Positions 5,236 to 21,115 of a DNA stretch of 25,661 nucleotides are shown in pieces (position 1 is the stretch's first letter; each line of letters opens with the position of its first letter). A program made the position numbers and the translations under genes. Under the pieces are notes generated by a model. It did not search any database. It was given only the letters and a program-made list of their open reading frames with translations, and was not told the DNA's origin. This DNA comes from a virus, in the IMG/VR virus record IMGVR_UViG_3300025138_000313, positions 1 to 25,661 of that record. One strand, written 5' to 3'.

Positions 5236-5264
5236 AGTTTATAAGCAGATTTATATATAGACTA
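5236..5264 (-). promoter_or_regulatory. promoter TAGTCT-N17-TAAACT
   Basis: Minus-strand TAGTCT (5259-5264) and TAAACT (5236-5241) are 17 bp apart. This matches the TWGTCN / TAnACT pattern seen at 2646, 7278 and 9209. It should drive the 5183-3661 operon. Confidence 0.6.
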
Positions 5265-5762
5265 TTCTTTTTTACTCTTATTTTGCCATGTGGTGATTTG
5301 ATAATCGTTTAATAGTTGACTAGATGAATTGCGTTTAGTGTTTCCCCCTACGCCGTACTCGTAAAATACTTCGTTGCCCCGTGAGCTGATGTAGTTTTCA
5401 GGGATAGAATTTGGTTGTCTATCGCCCCCGTTCATGAACAATAATTTTACGAAATAGTTTTTGTCCTTCCATTGTTGATCTACAATAGATATTAAATCGT
5501 TTGCGCTATCGTCATCATCATTAAATGGTAGAACTGTGAAAAAACAATCAAGATTAAGATGTTTTATAATATAGGATCTTTCATCCCATGTCATGAATGC
5601 TTGACCTTTTTTGCGTTTTAACCAGTTGTCGCTGTTTGGCCCGATTATGAGTTGATGACATTTTTTACTGGCTTCAAAAATATAATCAATATGACCAGAA
5701 TGTATTGGGTCAAATCCTCCTGTAACGATGCCTATTGTATAGGTTGAAGATTCAAAAGTCAT
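5262..5762 (-). CDS. cytidylyltransferase-like nucleotidyltransferase
   Basis: This 166-residue protein begins with the fold signature of the cytidylyltransferase superfamily, TGGFDPIHSGH (14-24), containing the HxGH nucleotide-binding motif. NGGDR (111-115) and TKRNSSSQ (142-149) sit where the family places its later substrate-binding motifs (compare ISTTxxI). Relatives such as TagD, RfaE C-terminal domains and PPAT transfer CMP or AMP onto phosphorylated alcohols or sugars; the substrate here cannot be read off. It is encoded with an ATGA overlap after a mannose-6-phosphate-isomerase-like cupin gene, so the two may build an activated sugar or polyol. A role in DNA or capsid decoration is speculation. 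Confidence 0.85.
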   Translation of the reverse strand: MTFESSTYTIGIVTGGFDPIHSGHIDYIFEASKKCHQLIIGPNSDNWLKRKKGQAFMTWDERSYIIKHLNLDCFFTVLPFNDDDDSANDLISIVDQQWKDKNYFVKLLFMNGGDRQPNSIPENYISSRGNEVFYEYGVGGNTKRNSSSQLLNDYQITTWQNKSKKE

Positions 5763-6337
5763 TTTATGTTTTCCCTTACATATAAATCCCCGTTATCTGC
5801 TTCTACGAGAAAATCTTCAGGGATAGGTACTTTTCCATCTACACAGGCTTTGCAATCATGTCGTTCTTCTTCAAACCAACCGCCATTGACAAAATCTACA
5901 ATTGGTTTATCGTACAGTATTCTTTCTGCCCCATTGCAATCAGAACAAGTCATAGTCATGCCTTCTTCATACGGGATTAATTGTCTGCGTTGAATATCTT
6001 CTTCTTCACAGCTTTCGCCATATTGAGTTTCTAATACGATACAGGGTTCGTTGTATGGATTTGATGTTAAGTGCCATTGATCTTTTTTTATCAATAAAGT
6101 ATCATGTGGTTTGAGGTGGTTGTTTTCTAGGTAATCACCACCTCTGCGCCAGTGTTCTTGAATAGTTACAATCAGGTTTCCGCTGATAATGTACCATTGT
6201 TCGTTGCGATGATGATGTAGTTGATCGCTGAGTTTGCTGTGTGGATTTATAGTGAGAGTTTTAATTTTAGTCTTTATTTTTCCTGTTTGTGATTCGTGAA
6301 GAATATTATAATATCCCCATTTACGCATGATTCCCAT
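5759..6337 (-). CDS. ManC/AlgA C-terminal-type cupin fused to a zinc-binding tail
   Basis: This 192-residue protein has two parts. Residues about 5-120 match the type II mannose-6-phosphate isomerase cupin: WGYYNIL, KIKTLTINPHSKLSDQLHHH with the metal-binding HHH (41-43) and E46, then DQWH (H89), and ending ETQYGESCEEEDIQR, very close to the usual QxGxxxxEDDIxR end. Residues about 125-192 add CSDC (131-134) and CKAC (162-165), a DnaJ-like four-Cys zinc site not found in ManC. The cupin could isomerise or bind a sugar phosphate; the zinc part may bind partners or nucleic acid. The start has AAAAAAGGAAAACCT before the ATG. It overlaps the nucleotidyltransferase gene by ATGA. Confidence 0.82.
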   Translation of the reverse strand: MGIMRKWGYYNILHESQTGKIKTKIKTLTINPHSKLSDQLHHHRNEQWYIISGNLIVTIQEHWRRGGDYLENNHLKPHDTLLIKKDQWHLTSNPYNEPCIVLETQYGESCEEEDIQRRQLIPYEEGMTMTCSDCNGAERILYDKPIVDFVNGGWFEEERHDCKACVDGKVPIPEDFLVEADNGDLYVRENIK

Positions 6338-8174: not shown

Positions 8175-8456
8175 TTACGTTAGATCTTCTTTTTTCACTC
8201 TAAATTTTTCCCAATCTCTCTTTCTCGTTGTCCACCGAGCTCCTAAAAGTGATCCACATTCATCGCAAGCGATCCGTCTAATTGGTTCTTTTAAGAGAAT
8301 GAACGAATGCGATCCACAGAGTGAGCAGCTCAATACATCTACATATTCTTCTGTAATAACAATATTTCTCTCGTCATCATGGGATGATTTTTCTTTCTTT
8401 ACGAATGGGATGACATTATCGGTTGCATGAATGGTGGAATTGGGCGGTTTTTCCAT
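8175..8456 (-). CDS. small zinc-ribbon protein
   Basis: In this 93-residue protein, residues about 44-70 hold CSLCGSHSF...RRIACDECGSLLGARW, a four-Cys C-x2-C / C-x2-C zinc ribbon as found in transcription or DNA-binding factors. The N-terminus (about 1-35) is polar and probably disordered; the C-terminus is charged (TRKRDWEKFRVKKED). Its first 58 bases overlap the end of the upstream gene in another frame, and no later Met is available. AAGG lies about 12 bases upstream, a modest Shine-Dalgarno. The zinc ribbon supports that it is real. Role unknown. Confidence 0.75.
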   Translation of the reverse strand: MEKPPNSTIHATDNVIPFVKKEKSSHDDERNIVITEEYVDVLSCSLCGSHSFILLKEPIRRIACDECGSLLGARWTTRKRDWEKFRVKKEDLT

Positions 8457-8881
8457 TTACAGAGCCTTGCTTTTTCGTGGATGTAATATTGTTGATAGGC
8501 GATTAATGTATCGTGATGTTTATATTGGTCTGGCATTGCTTGAGCAGGAGCAGTTGCCCCTCGTGCAGTGAGATTTATAGGGGGACAGCGCAAAATGGAA
8601 AGTATTCTTTCGCAGCCGTGAACTTTGTTATACCTGAACGTGTACTCAGCGCATAATGCTTTACCTAGAGACCACAACCACCGATAATTTTCAACAGTTT
8701 GCCCTGCCCATAGAGTACAGGGGTGTTTTTGATGTACTGGTAGGTATGGTCCGTCGTTGCTGTAGCGGTGATGTGTAGTGCTGAGCATTTGTGCGGTTTC
8801 TAATGGCATTTTGACAACGTGTTTGTCGCAATGATACTGGGCGCAAACATCATGCGCCCAGTCTAGTATAAAAATATTCAT
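8399..8881 (-). CDS. conserved phage protein with CDKHVVKM motif
   Basis: This 160-residue protein belongs to a family I know to be common in phages of aquatic bacteria, with no proven function. Features are an N-terminal MNIFILDWA, then CAQYHCDKHVVKMPLETAQML (13-33), HPCTLWAG and ENYRWLWSLGKALCAEY in the middle, and AMPDQYK, AYQQYY and a Lys/Trp-rich end. The conserved HCDKH cluster with later His and Cys residues would suit a metal-binding or nuclease-like active site, but this is inference. It overlaps the upstream gene by ATGA and the downstream zinc-ribbon gene by 58 bases. Confidence 0.82.
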   Translation of the reverse strand: MNIFILDWAHDVCAQYHCDKHVVKMPLETAQMLSTTHHRYSNDGPYLPVHQKHPCTLWAGQTVENYRWLWSLGKALCAEYTFRYNKVHGCERILSILRCPPINLTARGATAPAQAMPDQYKHHDTLIAYQQYYIHEKARLCKWKNRPIPPFMQPIMSSHS

Positions 8882-9239: not shown

Positions 9240-9830
9240 TTATTTATTCTTAATATATCCACTTGTGGCTGGTGCAGCATTCATTAATTCAATCAAAATT
9301 TGTTCAACACGGCGGTATTTAGATCTGTTTTCATCATTACCTAAATATGTTTTTGTGAGATAACGAACACCTGTGTTGAATACTTCATGAGCAAAAGTAT
9401 TTCCTGTTTGCATCAACCTAAAACAATGCATAGTTAACTCTAATTTATCTGCAATATCGCACATATCGCGTTCTTCTACGCCTACGGGGAATGTTTCAAA
9501 ACCGATATTTAGTTTGTTTGCATAATCGTATTCTATTTGTTGTAAGGTTTCTGCGAATTGTGGATAGTTCCATTTAGTTGTTGCAGGGATATCACCTGTT
9601 TCTGCTTCTGCTACATCATGATACATCATGTGAATCATTGCGTTTTTGCTACTATCGGGCCAAAGCGTTTGCAATATAACCATCGCTCTCCATGTATGCG
9701 CTGCTACATTCTGCCCATCTGCGATTTCGGGTTTTGCATGATATCTTAATACATGACCGCCTTTTAACCTTTGATGTATTGCTTTTAGGTCAACATTTCG
9801 CTGTGTTGGTGTTTTAGTCCTCTGGTCCAT
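9240..9830 (-). CDS. HD-domain nucleotide phosphohydrolase (YfbR/DatZ-like)
   Basis: This 196-residue protein has the metal-binding residues of the HD superfamily in YfbR order: R29, H45 in AAHTWR, H71-D72 in MMYHDVAEAETGD (with E75 and D80), and D128 in ADKLEL. YfbR-type enzymes remove phosphate from deoxynucleoside monophosphates. The related DatZ of Z-genome phages breaks down dATP; which nucleotide is used here cannot be told. The gene starts 46 bases inside the end of the polymerase gene, with GGAGAAACC before the ATG, so the two are made together. A role in shaping the dNTP pool for the polymerase, perhaps to favour modified nucleotides, is likely. Confidence 0.87.
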   Translation of the reverse strand: MDQRTKTPTQRNVDLKAIHQRLKGGHVLRYHAKPEIADGQNVAAHTWRAMVILQTLWPDSSKNAMIHMMYHDVAEAETGDIPATTKWNYPQFAETLQQIEYDYANKLNIGFETFPVGVEERDMCDIADKLELTMHCFRLMQTGNTFAHEVFNTGVRYLTKTYLGNDENRSKYRRVEQILIELMNAAPATSGYIKNK

Positions 9831-11701
9831 GGTTTCTCCGTAAAGGTTTGTTTTGCTTCCCCCCAGTTTGGTCCAAACTCTGCGTCTACTACTGAGGGAA
9901 CTTCTAAATTGACACAGTTTTCCATAATTTCTACGACACGTTTACCTTGGGCTTCGTTTTCTATAGAAAGGTCTAACTCATCATGCACTTGCAGCATGGG
10001 TAAGATACCTTCTTCGTATAACGCGACCATTGCAGCTTTAGTTTGATCAGCTGCACTACCTTGGATTAATTTATTTAAGGCTTTGTAAGTGAAAGCTCGT
10101 TTGATAGCAGGCCCATGTTCGGCGTGAGCTTCTTGATGAGTCATTGGCTTCCAGCTGCCATACCGTGTTGGTTCCCATTTATCGAATCTACACCTGCGAC
10201 CTAGAACTGTACGAATCACACCCCGTTTACTTGCACGATTAATGGCATATTCACTCAACTCACGCACAAAAGGTACTTTGTCGTGATATGTACTGAATAA
10301 TTCTTTTGCATCTTCAAATTCTAAACCAAGACTAGCAGCCAGCTTTTTAGAACCCATGCCATAAAATAATCCTAAGTTAATATCTTTAGCTTGTTTGCGT
10401 GGGACACCCACAACATCAGCCGCCATTTGGTGAAAATCAGTACGAGCATCTTCATTATATTGAGCGGCGAATTCTGCTGCTCCTTTGAACCCCATAAGTT
10501 TAGCATAATGCACAACTATGCGCGGTTCTTGGCTAGAGTAATCGAACGCGCCCCAAACAGTTCCTTGTTCGGGGATAAATAAGCTGCGTATAAGCGGCCC
10601 TATGACGGGGTCTCGAGCGGGTATCTGCTGTAGGTTAGGGTTACTACAGCTAAACCGCCCTGTGACTGTCCCACCTTGGTCTGAACGCAGCGGGTGAAGC
10701 TCTGCATGTATGCGCCCATTAACTTGGTGTTTAAGTATCGAATCTACAAAAGTGCTGCGAGCTTTTTGTAACTCCCGCGCTTCTACAATCATTTGTGCGA
10801 CTTCATGCGGGTGATGTTTTAAAAATCCTTTTGTAAAACTCGGCGCACCAGTATTTTCAGTGCGACTGTATTCTAAATTTAATACATCAAAGGCTTTTGC
10901 TACGCTATCTGCGGCCCATATTTCAACAGCGATGCCTGTGCGTTGAGTAATAGCATCTAATAGTTTTTTCTCACGCTTTGCTAAATCTACTTTAACAAGC
11001 TCTGTTTTATCTAAATCTACGCACACACCAAGCTGTCGCATTGGAACTATGGTTTTCAACACCTTTAACTCAAGATCTACAATGTCAGAAATGTCTTCCT
11101 TTATAATTAAAGTTTGGAAGTGCTTCCACAATCGTAAAGTAAGTGCTGCATCTTGTTCTGCGTATAACCCGACATATGCCGCTGGGAGTTTAAACATCTC
11201 GCTTTTAGCATTGATACCAAAAGCAGCGGCGGCTTCACGTAACTCTGCTTCTGATTTGCGCTCTTGCAAATAATCTCTGCCCACAGCATTTAAGGCATAA
11301 CTGAACCTATTTTCATCTAACAAGGGAGCCACAACCATTGTATCTACAATTCGGCCATGCACTTGTACTCCTTCAGCCAGTAACCAGCCTACGTCGTAAG
11401 GAGCATTGTGAAACACATAATCACGATCAACATTACATACGTCTTGTAACCAACTCAATGTACGCTTTACATCTAAATTAGGGCCAAGCTCATGCCTTAT
11501 GGGGAAGTACCATTGATCACCTTCTACAGCTACAGCAATACCAATTACATGACCATCTTTACGCGCCCAGCCTGAACCCATCGTAGTTAGGTTTGGGTCT
11601 TTAGTTTCTAAATCTATAGCAACTTCTTTAGCATTACTCAGATTCGGGTATCCGTCTGGGATAACCCATTCGGTCGGTGGCTTGAATAGAGGAAATTGCA
11701 T
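9785..11701 (-). CDS. polA: family A DNA polymerase with 3'-5' exonuclease
   Basis: This 638-residue protein is the replicative-type phage PolA. The proofreading domain is intact: Exo I AIDLET (D30, E32), Exo II HNAPYD (98-103), Exo III YAEQD (Y180, D184). The polymerase domain shows TGRFSCSNPNLQQIP (348-361), motif A FDYSSQEPR (D387), motif B RKQAKDINLGLFYG (R435, K439, Y447) and motif C VHDE (H573, D574). The N-terminal 5' nuclease is absent, as usual in phages. The residue matching E. coli F762 is Leu (L443), a variant known in viral polymerases and linked to slower, more accurate synthesis. The Shine-Dalgarno is weak, and the start overlaps the upstream zinc-ribbon frame by 68 bases. Confidence 0.97.
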   Translation of the reverse strand: MQFPLFKPPTEWVIPDGYPNLSNAKEVAIDLETKDPNLTTMGSGWARKDGHVIGIAVAVEGDQWYFPIRHELGPNLDVKRTLSWLQDVCNVDRDYVFHNAPYDVGWLLAEGVQVHGRIVDTMVVAPLLDENRFSYALNAVGRDYLQERKSEAELREAAAAFGINAKSEMFKLPAAYVGLYAEQDAALTLRLWKHFQTLIIKEDISDIVDLELKVLKTIVPMRQLGVCVDLDKTELVKVDLAKREKKLLDAITQRTGIAVEIWAADSVAKAFDVLNLEYSRTENTGAPSFTKGFLKHHPHEVAQMIVEARELQKARSTFVDSILKHQVNGRIHAELHPLRSDQGGTVTGRFSCSNPNLQQIPARDPVIGPLIRSLFIPEQGTVWGAFDYSSQEPRIVVHYAKLMGFKGAAEFAAQYNEDARTDFHQMAADVVGVPRKQAKDINLGLFYGMGSKKLAASLGLEFEDAKELFSTYHDKVPFVRELSEYAINRASKRGVIRTVLGRRCRFDKWEPTRYGSWKPMTHQEAHAEHGPAIKRAFTYKALNKLIQGSAADQTKAAMVALYEEGILPMLQVHDELDLSIENEAQGKRVVEIMENCVNLEVPSVVDAEFGPNWGEAKQTFTEKPWTRGLKHQHSEMLT

Positions 11702-11855
11702 TAGGTTTTACTTTCATAGGTTGGGAGCACTTTTTACAATGGGGCCAACGATTCTTTAAGTTACGAAAAGTAACTGTTCGGGGGCTGGCCCCACAGTTGC
11801 ATGTAGCAAGCACTTGTTCGTCAAGTTTGTCTGACACTATCTCTTTTCCACTCAT
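11634..11855 (-). CDS. small zinc-ribbon protein overlapping polA
   Basis: This is a 73-residue reading (MSGKEIVSDKLDEQVLATCNCG...). CNCG (about 19-22 by this start) and CKKC (about 40-43) make a four-Cys zinc ribbon with a basic stretch between. The start is uncertain: this ATG has GGGG directly against it, a GTG two codons earlier and a GTG six codons later (AAAAGAG upstream) are alternatives. It overlaps the upstream gene by about 35 bases and the polymerase start by 68 bases. The ribbon suggests a real gene, perhaps a DNA-binding partner of the polymerase, though the overlaps make me cautious. Confidence 0.6.
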   Translation of the reverse strand: MSGKEIVSDKLDEQVLATCNCGASPRTVTFRNLKNRWPHCKKCSQPMKVKPNAISSIQATDRMGYPRRIPESE

Positions 11856-12222
11856 CCCCACATTCTAAAAACAGTTCTTTATTTTCATCAAAATAAGACC
11901 TTGGTTCTGCTGCACGTAACTTTTTAGCATCTAACTCTGCAGTGCGTAGTATTTCTGCTTCTACTAACATTAAATAACGCCGCAAATCGCGCACATCATC
12001 TATAACACCTTCTTCACGGTTATCATCTCTTATAGCTTCAAACACATCGTAATCCATATTTTCAACTTGTTTTTCTAATCTATCCCATTTACGAGCCAAC
12101 ATCATAAAAGCACCTACACCACCACGTTTTTTCCAACTATCGCCATAGCTTTCTTCTGCTTTTTCTAAAGCAGTTACATCTGCCCTAGCTACGATATCTA
12201 CGGCTACCATCATCTCAGACAT
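11821..12222 (-). CDS. conserved phage protein of unknown function
   Basis: This 133-residue, mostly helical protein contains SYGDSWKKRGGVGAFMMLAR, KWDRLEKQVEN, and a later DDVRDLRRYLMLVEAEI. This arrangement is familiar from many uncharacterised phage proteins and looks like an all-alpha, acidic-residue-rich fold of the MazG/nucleotide-hydrolase kind, but I cannot confirm that. The start is the ATG coupled as TAATG to the FkbM gene, with AAAGGAG upstream. Its place between polymerase and nucleotide-modifying genes would fit nucleotide metabolism. Confidence 0.75.
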   Translation of the reverse strand: MSEMMVAVDIVARADVTALEKAEESYGDSWKKRGGVGAFMMLARKWDRLEKQVENMDYDVFEAIRDDNREEGVIDDVRDLRRYLMLVEAEILRTAELDAKKLRAAEPRSYFDENKELFLECGDEWKRDSVRQT

Positions 12223-12848
12223 TAAGTGCTCCTTTTCCAATAACTATTACATTCTTTTGCAGATTGGAATGCGTAACCCCGCGAAGAAAGTATAGCGTAC
12301 TTTTGCACACGGGACTTTTCTTGTTCGTTAAAATATGAAGATGTAGTTTTACCCCGAACAGCTACATGGTCTTCTGTAATAATTTCATCTGGCATTACAG
12401 ACCAATCATAACTAGAAAATATTCGGGTATCATTACCTTCAGTATCTACTTTTAAAATATCTACATGAGTAATGCCGTGATTTTTAAAAAGTGTTTGCAA
12501 CTTTTTCACTGGAACCTGTTGATACTCATCTGTTAAATGTTGGCGAACAAAGGGTTCATTGTTTCGCAGTGAAGATCTCATGCACTTTTCTTTTTGTGCT
12601 GGAGACCGCCTATCAAAAAACCCATACTTACCAAAATAAAGTCTACCCATTTCATCTACATCACTTATAGCACAGTGATCGTAAACATAATCTGTTCCTT
12701 TTAAACTTTTGTGAATATCTTTTTCCATATGGGCATTTGGTTCTACCATAAGACCGAACCACTTTTCCTTTTTGCGATGTAAAAGTTTATTTGCAAGCGA
12801 CAGTGTTCGGGCGTTGAAGCACCCTATATCAACAATAACTTTAGTCAT
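12222..12848 (-). CDS. FkbM-family SAM methyltransferase
   Basis: In this 208-residue protein, SAM-binding motif I is VDIGCFNARTL (6-16), followed by VEPN (35-38), AISD (60-63), VPVKKLQTLF (112-121) and VDILKVDTEGND (129-140). The last is the FkbM hallmark, with the D-x-E-G core. FkbM enzymes methylate hydroxyl groups on sugars or small molecules. Here a glycosyltransferase lies two genes upstream, so methylation of a transferred sugar, possibly on DNA or on virion parts, is a reasonable guess. The ATG has AAAGGAGA upstream and overlaps the stop of the thymidylate-synthase-like gene as ATGA, arguing for joint expression. Confidence 0.87.
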   Translation of the reverse strand: MTKVIVDIGCFNARTLSLANKLLHRKKEKWFGLMVEPNAHMEKDIHKSLKGTDYVYDHCAISDVDEMGRLYFGKYGFFDRRSPAQKEKCMRSSLRNNEPFVRQHLTDEYQQVPVKKLQTLFKNHGITHVDILKVDTEGNDTRIFSSYDWSVMPDEIITEDHVAVRGKTTSSYFNEQEKSRVQKYAILSSRGYAFQSAKECNSYWKRST

Positions 12849-13819
12849 TTCATTCTCCTTTGTAGCCATTCAACGCAAGCCTTCCGCCAAGCTGCATCTC
12901 TAATAGTAAATGCGTGATTCACCGCACCTGTGAGATTTTTTTGTTTCCAACAATCCCATGATTTCCGCATTGGTTCACAAATATCTGCAAAAACGGCATT
13001 GCGTAAACAATATCTATCTTTAGTTATCCACCTACGAAGCTCCTCATCAAAGGTGTCGGGATGAGTTACAAGTGGTGTAGGGGTATTGTCGTCTGACCTT
13101 TTGTCTAACAAAAGATATGAATTATAATCGGGTTGCATATTATCTAACTTAGCTAACGTCTTTTTGTAGGCGTGAAGATTGTTAGAAATTTGATAGTATA
13201 ATCCGACTTGAAACCCAGTCATTGCTGCCATATACTCTAACAACATAGACATATGCACAGCATTTGCGCCATACGCACCCCAAATCATATCATTGCTGCG
13301 ATTCACAATACTCATGTTTAGTTTGCCTTCACGCGCCCAAAAGAAAGCCTGAGTATTACAGGGATAATCTTTTCCTGCGTTATGCTCACGCAAATCTTCC
13401 CAAGGATCCCACATACCCACCACAGCACGGCGATCATTTTTAAATGTCATTAATCTGTGTTGGGCTATTTTTAATTGATCGCCCCCAAACCATTCGCGCC
13501 ATCTAAAACCATACGCGCCGTGGAACACATCGCCATCATCGCTATAGCTGCTGATGTTAGAATTAAACTGGCTTATCCATTCAACATCATTGCGCCCTGC
13601 CAGCATCCACATACCTTCCATAAAATGAAAATATGGGTTGGCATCCCGTTCTGGATAAAACAGCACCCTTTCACGACTGTGAGTATAAACGGTTGTTACT
13701 GGAGTAGGAAATTCTAAAGCGGGGCCGTTTCTAGTTTCTACTTCTACGCCCTTTAACAAAAGAGCTTGCTTTGCAACGTATAGGGCTTCCGCCACGTTAC
13801 GAACATAAAAAGACTGCAT
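12845..13819 (-). CDS. thymidylate synthase-fold enzyme (possible dUMP hydroxymethylase)
   Basis: This 324-residue protein belongs to the ThyA superfamily. Catalytic Cys is C154 in DYPCNTQAFFW; NRSND (173-177) matches the QRSxD phosphate-binding motif; WGAYGANAVHMSMLLEYMA (180-198) matches the substrate loop; and NLHAY (214-218) is the conserved H-x-Y. FMEGMWMLAG (66-75) fits the E-x2-W region. The sequence is clearly not a standard ThyA: PCN replaces PCH, and the loop before N186 has an extra residue. Such divergent phage members include dUMP and dCMP hydroxymethylases, which make modified precursors. With an HMUDK-family gene nearby, a 5-hydroxymethyl-dUMP activity is plausible; plain dTMP synthesis cannot be excluded. 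GAGG lies about 8 bases before the ATG. Confidence 0.85.
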   Translation of the reverse strand: MQSFYVRNVAEALYVAKQALLLKGVEVETRNGPALEFPTPVTTVYTHSRERVLFYPERDANPYFHFMEGMWMLAGRNDVEWISQFNSNISSYSDDGDVFHGAYGFRWREWFGGDQLKIAQHRLMTFKNDRRAVVGMWDPWEDLREHNAGKDYPCNTQAFFWAREGKLNMSIVNRSNDMIWGAYGANAVHMSMLLEYMAAMTGFQVGLYYQISNNLHAYKKTLAKLDNMQPDYNSYLLLDKRSDDNTPTPLVTHPDTFDEELRRWITKDRYCLRNAVFADICEPMRKSWDCWKQKNLTGAVNHAFTIRDAAWRKACVEWLQRRMK

Positions 13820-13845
13820 ACAACGCCTCTACGATTAAAAGTGGT

Positions 13846-13874
13846 GCGGGGGGCTGTAACCACCCGCAATTATA
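13846..13874 (-). promoter_or_regulatory. hairpin and TATAAT upstream of 13819
   Basis: GCGGGGGG (13846-13853) and CCACCCGC (13860-13867) form an 8-bp stem with one mismatch. A perfect minus-strand TATAAT lies at 13869-13874, but no good -35 is seen 15-19 bp before it. It may be a terminator/promoter pair that separates the glycosyltransferase from the 13819-9240 operon. Confidence 0.45.
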
Positions 13875-13896
13875 ACTCATGCCCATCTAACGGGGC

Positions 13897-14928
13897 TTAC
13901 ACGGCTTGTCCAGTAAGGAAGGCTAAGTATTCTCCACCTATCATGTGGGCGTTATGCTGTTCTAAACTCCTGTAACCACCTTGCTGCAACTCCCGCAGTT
14001 TTTGGTCTGTGATAACAGCACCGTTCCGTTTGCCTTGTAGGATTTCAGCTAACTCTTCTGCTCCTGCTACAGCAATACAGTTGTATCCAGGAATCATATC
14101 ATCAGGCTTTTCTAACAGCCATTCAATATTGATAATAGGAATACAACCCGCACTCCATGCTTCTAGCCAAGTGTATTGAGTACCGCCGCCATCACCTTTA
14201 ATTATGGTCATATCTACATTAAACTTGTAATCCAGCATGAACCTACGCGCATAATCTCTTTCACGTGGGTAATGGGCTTTAGATTGAACCCACTCAGGGT
14301 ATTTAGGTACGATTTTGAATTTAGTGTAGAGCCTGTTTTCAAACCCCCGTATATCTATTTGGTGATGTTCTTCTAACAGCCTATTTGCATCTAATAAGAT
14401 TTCTGTATGTTTATCAAAATCTATGCGGCTAGTGCTAACTGCATTAAACAATCTGTTCGTAGGCATTTCCCCCGCTGGCTCACCACAACTGTACGGATGC
14501 CGGATAAACGCAGGTTCCCTTACCCTAAGAGCATCTTCATCGGTTAAAGTTTTCAAACCAATTTTGCGAATAACAACACACCTACGGGGATCTAATTTTC
14601 GGGGCATGTTTTTTAATTCAGTAGGGTCGTGAATGACAATGCTCGCATTACCAAACTCGTACAATTCCTTCGTTTGTTCTTTGAACTGTTTAGCCCCTGC
14701 TACAATCAACTTCATTGTTGGCCGAACAAGAGCTTCTACCATTGTGATGTTACGGTATTCTTTATCATAACCGAACTTGCGTTTGTTCTTTTCACTACGG
14801 GGACGAATTTTAAATAGGTTGACTTCTACCCCTACGCTTTCCAAGGCTTCCATCAAATGACAAGTGTATGTGACCCAACCACCATAGGGGTTAGGACTCA
14901 GGTAAAATAGATCAACTTTCATTGTCAT
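13897..14928 (-). CDS. GT4-like (GT-B) glycosyltransferase
   Basis: In this 343-residue protein, the N-terminal Rossmann half opens with DLFYLSPNPYGGWVTYTCHLMEAL (6-29), whose GG loop is typical of GT-B acceptors. The C-terminal half has NAVSTSRIDFDKHTEILLDA (162-181) and GDGGGTQYTWLEAWSAGCIPII (245-266), the E-x-x-S-x-G-x-P-type donor-sugar site of GT4 and relatives. It should transfer a sugar from a nucleotide donor. In phages such enzymes often glycosylate hydroxymethylated DNA bases; here it follows an HMUDK-family gene with an ATGA overlap, which supports DNA as a possible target. Virion or host surface sugars are alternatives. I start at the Met in the ATGA overlap; another Met lies two codons on. 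Confidence 0.82.
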   Translation of the reverse strand: MTMKVDLFYLSPNPYGGWVTYTCHLMEALESVGVEVNLFKIRPRSEKNKRKFGYDKEYRNITMVEALVRPTMKLIVAGAKQFKEQTKELYEFGNASIVIHDPTELKNMPRKLDPRRCVVIRKIGLKTLTDEDALRVREPAFIRHPYSCGEPAGEMPTNRLFNAVSTSRIDFDKHTEILLDANRLLEEHHQIDIRGFENRLYTKFKIVPKYPEWVQSKAHYPRERDYARRFMLDYKFNVDMTIIKGDGGGTQYTWLEAWSAGCIPIINIEWLLEKPDDMIPGYNCIAVAGAEELAEILQGKRNGAVITDQKLRELQQGGYRSLEQHNAHMIGGEYLAFLTGQAV

Positions 14929-15818
14929 GCTACTGTACCCCAACTCGTTGTAGAAAGAGGTTTAAACAAACTTCGGGGTCTGCCTTGGCCTAACCGCACA
15001 CGCTCATATTTATCCCACTCACACAAGCTATGTTCAATAGTTCGCATATCTACATCACATATATTTATATGAACGCCTATATGAGCTCCCGCATGAACTA
15101 ATAATTGCAACATTTCTTCATTAGCTTGGGGCTGCTTCATACTCTTTTTTAATTCACGCCCATGTATTCTATTCAACCCACGCACTGCTCCAGGACCAGC
15201 GTTAGCCCAAGTATATCTATCTGCAGACCCCCACAGTACGGGAGTATAGTTTAAGTCCGTAACAACTTCGTAAGACATAAAGCCGCCACCTCCCCAACCA
15301 CGGTATTCTTTTAACCTTTCATGGGTAGCTTGTAGACTTTTTTCTACAGAGGCTAGTTTACCAAGCCAATCTCTTGCTTTCCAAATAGGGGTCAGGAAAT
15401 GATCAACAACAACTTCTGCTTTGCTGCACTTCAACCCTTGATTAGTGATAATATACGCTCCTGTGAAAGTACGCTTCTTATCTGCTAACCTTTGTTGTAT
15501 CAAGGCTTTAGTTTGCTCAGGGTTCCAATCAGTAACCCAACCATGCTCTTCAGCAAACTCTGTTGTTCCCACCATTCGGAACAAACAGCAGTTGAAAAAC
15601 ATATCCCCCCAAGTAGCTTTGTTTTCGTTTGGTTTTGTCCAGTTTTGCCGCATCCAAATAGTAACGCGATCGTTTTCCCTAAACGGGTTTGTGAATTTAT
15701 ATGTTTGTAAGATTGGATCATCAGTCCAAGGTGGGTTTTTACCTGCCACCCTGCGCTGATATATAGCGTGTCGCTCATTGATCCAACCGAAGTAACTTTC
15801 TACGGCTTCGGTTTGCAT
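14925..15818 (-). CDS. 5-hmdU DNA kinase helical-domain (aGPT-Pplase clade) protein
   Basis: This 297-residue protein shows the pattern of the alpha-glutamyl/putrescinyl-thymine pyrophosphorylase-like family, whose clade 2 is now named the 5-hmdU DNA kinase helical domain. NPPWTDDPILQTYKFTNPFREND (28-50) is followed by RVTIW, FTGAYIIT (118-125), GWGGGGFMSYEVVTDL (174-189), GPGAVRGLNR (208-217) and IEHSLCEWDKYERV (261-274). The GPG turn recalls the helix-hairpin-helix of DNA glycosylases. In phages with hypermodified thymine, family members act on 5-hydroxymethyluracil in DNA. No Walker A is visible, so a kinase partner, or a different activity, would be needed. GAGGAAG precedes the ATG; it is coupled to the glycosyltransferase. 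Family assigned from motif memory, not a search. Confidence 0.8.
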   Translation of the reverse strand: MQTEAVESYFGWINERHAIYQRRVAGKNPPWTDDPILQTYKFTNPFRENDRVTIWMRQNWTKPNENKATWGDMFFNCCLFRMVGTTEFAEEHGWVTDWNPEQTKALIQQRLADKKRTFTGAYIITNQGLKCSKAEVVVDHFLTPIWKARDWLGKLASVEKSLQATHERLKEYRGWGGGGFMSYEVVTDLNYTPVLWGSADRYTWANAGPGAVRGLNRIHGRELKKSMKQPQANEEMLQLLVHAGAHIGVHINICDVDMRTIEHSLCEWDKYERVRLGQGRPRSLFKPLSTTSWGTVA

Positions 15819-15821
15819 TGT

Positions 15822-16448
15822 TTACACTTCCTCTAATTCAATTACGCCAGCTTTTATTGCGATACGGATATCCATGCCACTTCCGGGACTAGGATCTAAA
15901 GCACGAAGTTTTTCCATTGCTTCGCCTACTGTTTCACAATCCATAACAACAGACATGTTACGGTAACGATTAGTACCTTCACGAATGTTGGGTTTATCTG
16001 TTAGAAGAATAATTTTATCATCGTTATTAAACCTCGTTCGCACTTGTCTGATTTTTGTTACAAGTATTGGTTCTGGAAGATCAGAAACATCTGTGTAAGT
16101 AGGCATAGGTTTTGTTCCTTTTTTAGCCTTCCAAAAGGAAGCCTGTTTTATTACGATTTCGTGTAGTGTTTTGGTTGCGCGTTCTTTAGTGAAAAGTTCA
16201 AGAAAAGCAGGAGTAGCAATTTGTTTGCGAATTGATTCTGCCAACGCTTTTTGTTCCTTACAATCACTCGCAAGCAACACATTAAGAACAAGAGCTTCTA
16301 ACTCTGGTTTGGTACAAGAATTAAACAGTTGTTCAGGGGTGGAATAAACAATGCTATATTCATCGATAGCATCGCAAGTCTTCATAGCTTCTAATGTTTC
16401 AAACTTTAAGAAAAACCACGGCGGTCCATCACATATTGCGTAAAACAT
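15822..16448 (-). CDS. hypothetical protein
   Basis: This 208-residue protein is of unknown function. The N-terminal part starts MFYAICDGPPWFFLKFETLEAM, a short beta/alpha region; the middle is helical and charged (LEALVLNVLLASDCKEQ, SIRKQIATPAFLELF); the C-terminal part includes KIILLTDKPNIREGTNRYR and MDIRIAIKAGVIELEEV, the latter a likely beta strand. It does not match a family I know. Start supported by CATAGAAAGGGAGATAA before the ATG, with a promoter at 16483-16511. It is first in the operon that continues with the HMUDK-like and glycosyltransferase genes, so it could be part of that pathway. Confidence 0.78.
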   Translation of the reverse strand: MFYAICDGPPWFFLKFETLEAMKTCDAIDEYSIVYSTPEQLFNSCTKPELEALVLNVLLASDCKEQKALAESIRKQIATPAFLELFTKERATKTLHEIVIKQASFWKAKKGTKPMPTYTDVSDLPEPILVTKIRQVRTRFNNDDKIILLTDKPNIREGTNRYRNMSVVMDCETVGEAMEKLRALDPSPGSGMDIRIAIKAGVIELEEV

Positions 16449-17923: not shown

Positions 17924-19441
17924 TCAGTGTGATAACAAATAACCTTGACTAAACATAGGGTGGATCAGGTGTAAATTATCTGTAGCTCTAGTAAGGCCAA
18001 CATAGAATACCCTAGCTTCATCTTCCTCGTAGGTATTTATTTTGCGCCACATACTATAAGGTCGACGCATGGTATCTGTTAACAGCATGACATTAGTTGC
18101 TTCCGCTCCTTTTGCTGAGTGTATAGTAGATATACGCAGCCTTGGAGTTTCTGTTAAACTTTCACCTTTTCGCAAACATGCTTTAATATATGTACGGTCA
18201 CGTTCTGATATTTTCCCTAACCCTACATCCCAAGGGTGAGTATGTAGTAACCCGTGATTTTGGCGTAAATCTTCTAAGCTGTAAAACACACTATCATCAC
18301 CATCGGGCATTGTTTTAAATCCGTAAGCAACTTGGCTGTTGAGCAGCATCTGTTTGTAAACTAACCGAACATGTTCTGCGTTCAAACGGTTTCCTTGCCG
18401 CAAATGTTCCCACAACCGAACAGCCTCCAATACCTTACTATCTATACTTTTAGATCCGTTATAGATGTACAAATGTCCTCGTCGGCGTACTTCTTCTTCA
18501 ATTTGTTGTGCGCCTCGTGTTGTTCGGCTGAGTAACAGCCATTGGCCTGATGATAAATCTACTTCTTCAGAGTGTCTATGCCAGACTACACTTCCGTGGG
18601 ATTCTTTAGGCGTGAATATTTTTTCACGTCTGCCAACAATTTTGCGTATAATCTTATGACTTAACTCATGGTGCAGAGAAGGTATTCTATAAGATTTATT
18701 TAATAACGTCACTTCACCGTTGAGACCGACAAAATGCTCTACATCTGCTCCTGCATATCTAAAAATCGCTTGATCATCATCCCCCGCCACATAACAGATT
18801 TTACTATTAGCTTCTAACATACGGGCCATCTCCCATTGGATGGGAGAAAGATCTTGGGCTTCATCTATGAACACTACTTCTAGCTTCGGGCACAACTTTC
18901 TTTCTATGAATGTTTCTAACATCCCCGCATAATCTTCTAACGCATAAGAGCGTTTCCAATGTTCTAACCCTTTGTTAACGTATTCAACCCTAGACCAATC
19001 TGTTTTTAATGGGACAATACTTTCATTATATATCTTACGCAACGGTTGCCGCAAAATGCGAGACATATTTATTATTTCTAAAAACTTATCTCCATAACCG
19101 AAATCTTTGTATGGCCCTTGATCTACAGGTGTACCTGTGTAAAACCTACCTATCTTTAACCAATCAGCTACTTCTTGGTATTTTTGTGGAGTCATTACTT
19201 GTGAATGAGTAAGCCCCGCTTGCAAAAAAGCTAGACTATGCAGGGTTCTAAAATAGGGCAACTCTTTACGGGAAAGCCCAAACTTCTCACTGGCTCTATC
19301 TATAGCTTCTGTAGCTGCTCTACGGGTGAATGCAAAATATCCAATACGATCTGGTGGCACACCACTCTGCAAATAACTTTCTACTAATGATAACAGCTTA
19401 GTTGTTTTTCCTGTTCCAGGAGGCCCAAGCACAATTTTCAT
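17924..19441 (-). CDS. UvrD/Rep-type SF1A DNA helicase
   Basis: This 505-residue protein has all main SF1A motifs in order: Walker A GPPGTGKTT (6-14), Ia YFAFTRRAATEA (35-46), TLHSLAF (66-72), Walker B FIDEAQDLSP (191-200), motif III VAGDDDQAIFRYAG (218-231), motif IV LLLSRTT (302-308), motif V STIHSAKGAEATNVMLL (438-454) and motif VI EARVFYVGLTRATDNL (475-490). It is shorter than UvrD (about 720), with reduced 1B/2B domains, like phage Dda-type enzymes. It should unwind DNA 3'-5' using ATP, in replication or recombination. Its start overlaps the primase stop as TAATG, so the two are made as a pair. Confidence 0.95.
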   Translation of the reverse strand: MKIVLGPPGTGKTTKLLSLVESYLQSGVPPDRIGYFAFTRRAATEAIDRASEKFGLSRKELPYFRTLHSLAFLQAGLTHSQVMTPQKYQEVADWLKIGRFYTGTPVDQGPYKDFGYGDKFLEIINMSRILRQPLRKIYNESIVPLKTDWSRVEYVNKGLEHWKRSYALEDYAGMLETFIERKLCPKLEVVFIDEAQDLSPIQWEMARMLEANSKICYVAGDDDQAIFRYAGADVEHFVGLNGEVTLLNKSYRIPSLHHELSHKIIRKIVGRREKIFTPKESHGSVVWHRHSEEVDLSSGQWLLLSRTTRGAQQIEEEVRRRGHLYIYNGSKSIDSKVLEAVRLWEHLRQGNRLNAEHVRLVYKQMLLNSQVAYGFKTMPDGDDSVFYSLEDLRQNHGLLHTHPWDVGLGKISERDRTYIKACLRKGESLTETPRLRISTIHSAKGAEATNVMLLTDTMRRPYSMWRKINTYEEDEARVFYVGLTRATDNLHLIHPMFSQGYLLSH

Positions 19442-20973
19442 TAGATGATACCTTCATCTGCCGGTAAATCAGGCAATTGAATAAATTCATCATGTGTTTC
19501 AAAAAACGATTGCGGTAATCCCCAAACATGGACACCTTTGCCCCGAACACGCCAAAAGGTTTTTTCGGCCTGTAAATCTCGTAAGCGCAACGTAATTTTA
19601 TTAGATGTATAATGGTTGAAGTCATTTACAGTTAGGTGTTTCTTTAAATCTTTCACTTGGAAAAACACCTTACCATCTAACCACACGGCAACGCCCTGTA
19701 ATACATCTTCTTTTTCTTCACCCTTAGCACGTTCACAAGCAAAAGCTGTAAGTAAATCTACAAATTCACCTTTAAGCGTAGCATCTGGCGGAACTTCAAT
19801 TATTGTTAAATTATCTAACAACAACTGTATTCGTGTTTGCCAAGATCGCTGGGCTATCATTACTGGAAACTTATTTATTTGGCTCACACATTCTTTTTGA
19901 AACTGCCCTTGGCTAGTCAAACCATTTGTAGATAATTCTAACCGTTCGCCATCTACATTTAATATCCATATAGGCGGATCACCATCTATTTTAGTAAGGC
20001 TAGTCATATCATTGCCTACGCCTGTTGGCCCCACACCGTATTTACGGAGTTTGCATACTTCTTTATTGCAAAAAGGTTTGATAGGTTGGTCTTCACATTT
20101 GTAAAAATACTCTTTTTTCTTTAACTGCCGTATAACCCCGCCAACTTCGTTGTGGCTCAGGGGCGGTTTTAAATAATCTATATTGTACTTTTGAACTAAG
20201 GTTTCCCAGTTCACTTCATCAAACATACGAGCATATACCCCTAAATTGAACAAAGCATTATTGCGAGAACCTTCTTCAAACCCCACACTGCATAAATGTT
20301 GTAGACAGGGTGGCCCTTCTTCCATCACACCTTCTTGTGTGCCAAAACTCATCGTTAAGTTATGGAATTGGTCTGGCGTACAAATAAATTGTTTAGCATA
20401 TTTTATGAAATCTGTTGCAGATAACGCTTCTGCATTATCGTCAAAAGCATATCGAGTAGAATCATCGCCCGATAAGTAAGGCATATTCAAAAAGTTGCCT
20501 GTATCGCCACGATCTAACAAAATGGTAGTTTGTTTAGGGAATATCTCACTGCCAGCAAAACCCAATGCTGCGCTCAACTCTGCCATTCGTCCTTGCATTT
20601 CTTCCGCTGTTATAGGTTCGTTTAAAAATACCCATACATGAGCACCACCAGATTTAGTGCGCCCCACTACAGCAGGGATTTTATTATCCCTTAATGTTTT
20701 AACTAACTGTTTGTGGCTGACATCATACTGATCAATATCTATTGCACCCCAATGGCACATATTGTCGCTTTTAATAGGGATAATACCTAACCCCGTACCC
20801 CCTTTTAAATGTTCTTCCCACATACTCAAAGTTGTGGGTTCACGTAAAACCTTTGCTGTTCCTTGTTTTTTGCCATCCCTTTGACGATCTTTGTTTACAA
20901 CAAAAGTGCCATGAGCAATGTCACTGCCTTTAAATAATTCACTAAACTGCCGCGCTAAATTTTCTATTGTCAT
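19441..20973 (-). CDS. archaeo-eukaryotic (AEP/PrimPol, TOTE-like) primase
   Basis: This 510-residue protein has an AEP core at about 1-190: HWGAIDIDQYD (74-84) with the catalytic D79 and D81, RTKSGGAHVWVF (105-116) with H112 as the nucleotide-binding His, and EIFPKQ, then LLDRGDTGN and NMPYLSGD for the last metal residue and sugar contact. The region 220-312 holds PPCLQHLC, GSRNNALFNLGVYAR, and YKC, FCNKEVC (C222, C227, C292, C301, C306), a probable zinc or Fe-S site in a PriCT-like domain. The C-terminus (about 320-510) looks like a helical/winged part. I chose the ATG with GAGGGT just before it; a longer N-terminus has no such site. It should prime DNA synthesis for the polymerase. Confidence 0.85.
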   Translation of the reverse strand: MTIENLARQFSELFKGSDIAHGTFVVNKDRQRDGKKQGTAKVLREPTTLSMWEEHLKGGTGLGIIPIKSDNMCHWGAIDIDQYDVSHKQLVKTLRDNKIPAVVGRTKSGGAHVWVFLNEPITAEEMQGRMAELSAALGFAGSEIFPKQTTILLDRGDTGNFLNMPYLSGDDSTRYAFDDNAEALSATDFIKYAKQFICTPDQFHNLTMSFGTQEGVMEEGPPCLQHLCSVGFEEGSRNNALFNLGVYARMFDEVNWETLVQKYNIDYLKPPLSHNEVGGVIRQLKKKEYFYKCEDQPIKPFCNKEVCKLRKYGVGPTGVGNDMTSLTKIDGDPPIWILNVDGERLELSTNGLTSQGQFQKECVSQINKFPVMIAQRSWQTRIQLLLDNLTIIEVPPDATLKGEFVDLLTAFACERAKGEEKEDVLQGVAVWLDGKVFFQVKDLKKHLTVNDFNHYTSNKITLRLRDLQAEKTFWRVRGKGVHVWGLPQSFFETHDEFIQLPDLPADEGII

Positions 20974-21115
20974 TGTACCCTCACGATATTTCTTCAACGT
21001 GTTTAATAAAATTGGGGATTGCCCCCGCTTCGAACGTAACTTGAAAGGGTAAAATTCAAACCATCCAAAGCAAAAACAATCCCCTGCAACCACAGGTGAT
21101 CAATCCCATGTGTTG

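Follow-up and report, generated by a model that had tools for sequence, protein, structure and literature searches.

The Pseudomonas phages M6 and YuA are reported to contain 5-aminoethyl-dU. YuA carries an amino-acid:DNA transferase (ADDT) gene, gp10, upstream of a run that reads kinase gp13, HMUDK_hel gp14, Nmad5 gp15, and thymidylate synthase (TS)-like gp17, with the family A DNA polymerase (PolA) gene gp21 further along; gp13 belongs to the 5-hydroxymethyl-dU (5-hmdU) DNA kinase family PF18748. In PaMx11 the order is ADDT gp46, gp47, gp48, kinase-like gp49, HMUDK_hel gp50, TS gp51, and HD gp52, with PolA gp55 further along. We analyzed a 25.7-kb fragment from an uncultivated aquatic phage (IMG/VR record IMGVR_UViG_3300025138_000313, positions 1 to 25,661; here called the window) whose HMUDK_hel cluster is syntenic with the kinase-HMUDK_hel-TS...PolA arrangement of YuA, PaMx11, and Sonora. 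As in M6/YuA and PaMx11, HMUDK_hel neighbors the gene of a TS-like hydroxymethylase, with that of a family A polymerase further downstream; an HD gene is nearby, as in PaMx11. Whereas those phages have a PF18748-type kinase and an ADDT, the window cluster has a glycosyltransferase (GT) and an FkbM methyltransferase, with no kinase and no ADDT over cut-off; of the M6/ViI-type components, the TS-fold hydroxymethylase was recognized in the window by its sequence, and the PF18748 kinase and PF18724 ADDT were not found there. The phage probably uses 5-hydroxymethyluracil (hmU) in place of thymine and adds a sugar to it, giving a glycosylated thymine analogue in its DNA with no kinase step of the M6/ViI kind. 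The cluster is best read as a new variant of hmU hypermodification, in which hmdU would be glycosylated directly in DNA and, in this phage, O-methylated. The original prediction for this DNA, made from the letters alone, is borne out in part: an hmU-based cluster without a standard HMUDK and with a possible methylated sugar stands, while its PCN motif as a sign of divergence and its aGPT-PPlase label do not, and its option of a kinase elsewhere is unlikely.

T-even phages, which are not known to employ HMUDK_hel, make hydroxymethylcytosine (hmC) with a dCMP hydroxymethylase. Their alpha- and beta-glucosyltransferases (AGT and BGT) and the TAGT of T6 resemble the arrangement proposed here in having a GT that acts on a 5-hydroxymethyl pyrimidine in DNA, in the GT-B fold, and in a choice of GT that differs between related phages. 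Base J and phage SP-15 share with it a sugar on a thymine-derived base, but base J of kinetoplastids is made by oxidizing T in DNA, and the sugars of SP-15 are on dihydroxypentyluracil, which is made before DNA synthesis (PMC5977210). YerA41 has an unidentified thymidine modification of roughly 1 kDa that is thought to be an oligosaccharide (PMC9023294). For HTVC023P-type pelagiphages of clades V, VIII, and IX, linkage of TS, "aGPT-PPlase1," and GT genes has already been described (PMC9599517); the available part of that account makes no mention of kinase loss, a swappable GT slot, the C0 and C4 GT types described below, FkbM, or radical SAM. Brevibacterium phage LuckyBarnes also has HMUDK_hel (gp38) together with GTs (TAGT gp39 and TAGT gp40) and TS (gp41), and it gave no PF18748 match; it differs in being an actinophage with two TAGT (GT-A) genes as against the one GT-B gene of the window. 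Its HMUDK_hel falls outside the window clade on the tree, on a long branch, and a single clade was not rejected (approximately unbiased [AU] test, p=0.065). A single origin of GT-linked HMUDK_hel was without support from the tree, yet the long branches and the AU value leave room for it.

The four adjacent leftward genes of the original prediction are all present, as follows.

14925 to 15818, minus strand: HMUDK_hel (PF18723; often annotated aGPT-PPlase1), from Pfam, phrog_2396, and an AlphaFold2 (AF2) model.
13897 to 14928, minus strand: GT-B/GT4-like glycosyltransferase of the C4 type, the slot gene, from an AF2 model and Foldseek.
12845 to 13819, minus strand: TS-fold enzyme, probable dUMP hydroxymethylase (C154, PCN motif, N186), from phrog_5131, MilA, and YuA gp17.
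12222 to 12848, minus strand: FkbM-family methyltransferase, from PF05050 and TIGR01444.

The full gene order is u208, HMUDK_hel, GT, TS, FkbM, a small gene, PolA, and HD. HMUDK_hel and GT overlap by ATGA at 14925-14928, as do TS and FkbM at 12845-12848, and two starts were corrected, to ATG 14928 for the GT (14943 in the open reading frame list) and to ATG 12848 for FkbM (12869 in that list). A scan of IMG/VR for relatives returned 80 loci whose HMUDK_hel is 59-71% identical; the set comprised 90 loci after removal of re-fetched duplicate contigs.

The Pfam search that had been proposed as a check matched the 14925-15818 protein to HMUDK_hel over its full length (E = 4.7e-52; 177.5 bits versus a cut-off of 25; residues 3-276 on profile positions 1-276 of 281). 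The protein also matched phrog_2396 (E = 1e-54), and its motifs are invariant across the relatives and YuA. Thus, the HMUDK-helical part of the label first given to it holds; "aGPT-PPlase" mixes two families, the amino-acid:DNA transferase being PF18724 (aGPT-PPlase2), to which the protein has no sequence match. No P-loop is present. The AF2 model is all-helical (pLDDT 89.6), and its best fold match in the PDB was 8z2n, the phage 5-PmdU glycinyltransferase gp46 (probability 0.87, TM 0.43, Foldseek E = 0.39), followed at a far lower level by the helix-hairpin-helix glycosylase MagIII; BFVD structure matches include PhiW-14, SP10, and ADDT proteins. Because an hhalign comparison with the ADDT profile was not significant, the link to ADDT rests on structure and weak hidden Markov model matches; identity with ADDT by sequence was rejected, and only a fold-level relation was retained, with the model suggesting that HMUDK_hel is a distant structural relative of PF18724. 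Judged from its relatives, HMUDK_hel is not itself a kinase. It is paired with a kinase in YuA, Sonora, PaMx11, and Simon and with a glycosyltransferase in other phages, and this pairing and the fold suggest that it is probably an hmU-DNA binding, possibly base-flipping, protein.

The kinase-type P-loop is indeed missing, as first noted: in a motif scan of the window, the only Walker A was that of the SF1 helicase (17924-19441). PF18748 was matched in none of 29 relatives' records (24 of 50-69 kb and 5 more), with YuA, Sonora, and ViI clearly positive as controls and PaMx11 weak. In the near-complete relatives scanned for motifs (three: G015, G013, and G020, the last over the first 60.0 of its 60.3 kb), the SF1 helicase was the one convincing Walker A protein. 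For PF18724, there was no match over cut-off in 24 relatives' records, with YuA and Sonora positive; five weak matches under the cut-off were seen in relatives, and that of G005 maps inside its HMUDK_hel gene. Two options had been offered, a variant without a standard HMUDK or a kinase encoded elsewhere; the first is retained, and the second is unlikely because the whole-record searches of relatives were without PF18748. It is likewise unlikely that a divergent 5-hmdU DNA kinase of phage or host phosphorylates hmU and that the GT acts on a later intermediate. Such a route would fit the kinase partners of HMUDK_hel in the four phages named above, the BFVD SP10 protein (637 aa, named 5-hmdU DNA kinase) that contains an HMUDK_hel domain, and a P-loop protein unrelated to PF18748 in one relative, G016; opposing it are the PF18748 and P-loop results and the failure to find, over cut-off, the ADDT that would consume the phosphate.

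Where YuA/PaMx11 have the kinase gene, the window has u208 (15822-16448). It was considered as a degenerate kinase and rejected, with no P-loop or Walker A and no family or kinase match. Kinase or kinase-position genes beside HMUDK_hel carry the public label "terminase small subunit" (NC_010116.1 gp13, NC_042117.1 gp55, and NC_028770.1).

The TS-fold enzyme matched PF00303 (E = 1e-18) and, far more strongly, phrog_5131 (E = 1e-101). Its closest PDB chain is the CMP 5-hydroxymethylase MilA (E = 2e-14), ahead of ThyA, and it is ~45% identical to the putative dUMP hydroxymethylases YuA gp17 and Sonora_044. It fell far under every cut-off of the NCBIfam thymidylate synthase equivalogs and, as had been expected, does not score as a true ThyA; its sequence makes it a probable dUMP hydroxymethylase of the TS fold. 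The PCN motif, first described as divergent, is really present but is not unusual, since PCN and the dUMP-type Asn (N186) are common to YuA gp17, Sonora_044, and all aligned relatives. Because M6/YuA-type enzymes share it, PCN is not evidence of odd catalysis, and that idea was dropped. The PF00303 match and the thymidylate synthase names in public annotation would also suit an ordinary thymidylate synthase and DNA with no modified base. This is very improbable, given the distance from the NCBIfam cut-offs, the closeness to MilA rather than ThyA among solved structures, and an enzyme family common to phages reported to be thymidine hypermodified.

The window GT (13897-14943 as listed) had no Pfam, PHROG, or PDB sequence match. 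An AF2 model from an alignment of 13 relatives (pLDDT 75.6, pTM 0.81) is predicted to adopt the two-Rossmann GT-B fold and in Foldseek matched PimA (E = 3e-8), T4 alpha-glucosyltransferase (1xv5, E = 2.9e-6), HepE, and MshA, with probability 1.00; the T4 matches are structures bound to HMU-containing DNA. Because these are GT-B/GT4 enzymes, the earlier description "GT4-like" is correct at the fold level. In the region of the donor-binding E-x7-E motif, the second E, in GDGGGTQYTxLEA, is conserved (256 of the window protein in A5), and the first Glu position is Gly. This C4 type is distantly homologous (hhalign E = 6e-9) to a second type, C0, a GT-B/GT1-4 protein of about 430 aa (PF00534, E = 2e-5). 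The third type, TAGT (PF20691, E = 2e-15), is a GT-A enzyme (PMC13216743) and is followed in the slot by a SPASM radical-SAM protein; PF20691 includes a T6 DNA glucosyltransferase, and TAGT was not detected in the M6/YuA and PaMx11 systems. Neither C0 nor C4 had a relative in about 50,000 phage records. The window GT alone, as a scan query, found no relatives; these came from a scan with the C4 alignment, in which 22 of 22 loci lay inside the HMUDK_hel/TS cluster. Two of the 22 are cut off at one end: L104 upstream of its radical-SAM gene, so that HMUDK_hel is not visible, and L094 (same contig as L061) before TS. No C4 relative was found away from the TS-like gene, and the gene upstream was HMUDK_hel or radical SAM.

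The module common to the relatives consists of an SNF2-type helicase, Pam3-like genes, primase, SF1 helicase, DUF932, u208, HMUDK_hel, a slot, TS, a small gene, PolA, HD, and a pyrimidine-excision-like gene. One of the three GT modules occupies the slot between HMUDK_hel and TS, with FkbM or radical SAM optional. A GT type was found in the region for 88 of the 90 loci (C0 in 35, TAGT in 30, C4 in 23), and the 2 without a recognized GT are presumed to be truncated contigs. In L055 and L071, HMUDK_hel is directly beside TS, and the C0 gene is about 6 kb upstream. From the L055 lineage, whose GT has left the slot, comes the P-loop protein of G016 (PF13671; contig 27759-28073, L136).

When GT type is traced on a PolA tree with 40 distinct rows, 7 or more changes are needed, versus a minimum of 2. 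The loci L022 (C0) and L020 (C4) are 95.9% identical over 10.9 kb to base 10898, where HMUDK_hel ends at 10897; homology is lost across the GT gene and returns, at 91.8% identity, from the 3′ end of the GT. Despite the different GTs, the two HMUDK_hel proteins are 98.3% identical. The GT gene is therefore swapped as a one-gene cassette between near-identical phages and, judged from the relatives, is the swappable core of the cluster. Since one HMUDK_hel occurs alongside different GTs, a generic role on hmU-DNA is favored over that of a GT-specific subunit. The C4 phage L020 has an inserted nucleotidyltransferase gene (L020:15304-16128) between PolA and HD that the near-identical C0 phages L019/L022 lack; this may be a second exchange site that travels with GT type.

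The FkbM assignment of the 12222 gene was upheld, with scores over the cut-offs of both PF05050 (E = 2e-9, 38.2 versus 22.7 bits) and TIGR01444 (42.3 versus 37.7 bits), and the enzyme probably serves in sugar O-methylation. Window-type FkbM occurs only with C4, in 7 of 23 loci versus 0 of 67, or by distinct PolA lineage in 4 of 10 C4 versus 0 of 30 others (Fisher p=0.0023). In L105 and L108, the gene for another FkbM-like methyltransferase, recognized by sequence motif only, is located upstream. The SPASM radical-SAM protein (e.g., L034:11929-12981 and L106:7006-8004) was seen alongside TAGT in 27 loci and alongside C4 in 3 (L104, L106, and L107), suggesting that the sugar or base undergoes radical chemistry.

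Surface-glycan clusters often contain GT4 and FkbM enzymes, and the GT and methyltransferase could act on a surface glycan, capsid, or host envelope, their location in a replication operon being incidental. The window nucleotidyltransferase and sugar-nucleotide-type cupin at 5262-6337 would be in keeping with this. However, GTs of two unrelated folds share the position between HMUDK_hel and the hydroxymethylase gene, the TAGT family has a DNA-glucosylating member, and LuckyBarnes repeats the pattern; a surface role is thus improbable. The nucleotidyltransferase (5262-6337, minus strand) is RfaE/HldE adenylyltransferase-like (TIGR02199, E = 1e-12, under cut-off), and the adjoining cupin resembles the C terminus of mannose-1-P guanylyltransferase/mannose-6-P isomerase. 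The pair is found in some relatives only and could supply sugar nucleotide.

For direct glycosylation of hmdU in DNA, the steps would be as follows. The TS-fold enzyme would, as its family suggests, turn dUMP into 5-hydroxymethyl-dUMP; other kinases would phosphorylate this product, and the phage PolA would polymerize hmdUTP. HMUDK_hel would bind hmU-containing DNA, perhaps flip the base, and serve whichever modifying enzyme is present. The GT, for which the basis is a GT-B fold and a near-constant gene position, would put a sugar on the hydroxymethyl oxygen in DNA, like T4 AGT on hmC and the base J glucosyltransferase (JGT) on hmU, and FkbM would methylate this sugar in the window phage. Exchange of the GT would presumably alter the DNA sugar coat met by host modification-dependent nucleases and glycosylases. 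Alternatively, the GT might act on hmdUMP or hmdUTP before polymerization, with the sugar-bearing nucleotide then incorporated. SP-15 offers a precedent (PMC5977210), and all results are compatible with such an order, but T4 AGT, the structural match, works on DNA and HMUDK_hel resembles a DNA-acting transferase; we regard it as quite unlikely.

Several points weigh against direct glycosylation in DNA without a kinase. G016, the phage of L055, has a P-loop kinase-like protein of another family (PF13671, over cut-off), and in acinetophage nACB2 a different P-loop gene lies close to HMUDK_hel. The window is a 25.7-kb fragment, and the completeness of the relatives is without a CheckV estimate. 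Confidence in the GT model is moderate (pLDDT 75.6, TM about 0.5-0.6), enzymes with GT-B/GT4 folds act on surface glycans as well, and neither C0 nor C4 has a characterized relative. The hhalign comparison of HMUDK_hel with ADDT was not significant, and a GT-specific adaptor role is disfavored by the compatibility of one HMUDK_hel with different GTs. Glycosylation ahead of polymerization keeps the small likelihood given above. Finally, gene content, folds, linkage, exchange, and kinase absence in relatives were observed, and all of the chemistry is what we infer, including the order of glycosylation and polymerization, the donor sugar, the role of HMUDK_hel, and the benefit to the phage.

The pattern suggests a kinase-independent job for HMUDK_hel, despite its kinase-derived name. 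We tentatively propose, as a reading that falls a little short of probable, that HMUDK_hel is a generic handler of hmU in DNA for kinases or GTs and that this clade uses an exchangeable one-gene GT cassette (GT-B C0 or C4, GT-A TAGT) with optional methyltransferase or radical-SAM tailoring, such that near-identical phages differ in their DNA sugar coat. If true, this would be a DNA counterpart of serotype switching, and C0 and C4 would be two new DNA glycosyltransferase families; these two GT families could be new DNA-modifying enzymes. The prediction is that a widespread group of uncultivated phages has glycosylated hydroxymethyluracil in its DNA and makes it with no use of the kinase step by which the characterized thymine hypermodification pathways are defined. 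Paired genomes differing mainly in the GT gene form a natural experiment on why phages vary their DNA sugar, and the question can already be tested with LuckyBarnes, a phage in culture whose host is a soil bacterium.

The cluster is flanked by the following conserved genes.

15822 to 16448, minus strand: u208, a conserved 208-aa neighbor without a function by family, in 67 of 84 records searched.
11821 to 12222, minus strand: conserved gene for a small protein, lying between PolA and the cassette, with ATG at 12222, in 72 of 84 records searched.
9785 to 11701, minus strand: family A DNA polymerase (PolA), 638 aa, 36% identical to YuA polymerase gp21.
9240 to 9830, minus strand: HD-domain YfbR-like 5′-deoxynucleotidase (PF12917, E = 7e-10).

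Among these, u208 is fast evolving, with 23-58% identity among relatives. The HD 5′-deoxynucleotidase is a possible remover of dTMP, and an HD gene after TS is also found in PaMx11 (gp52) and AIIMS-Plu-RaNi. No near-identical isolate phage was found, and a host call from genome contigs was rejected as uninformative, the matches being stray phage contigs in metagenome-assembled genomes. A gene at 8399-8881 (minus strand) matched Pyr_excise (PF03013, barely over cut-off) and phrog_624 and is near the cassette in 62 of 84 records; it is a DNA-repair-type gene beside the base modification cluster. The replication module also includes an AEP-TOTE-type primase (PF22548, E = 1e-17) at 19441-21093 on the minus strand.

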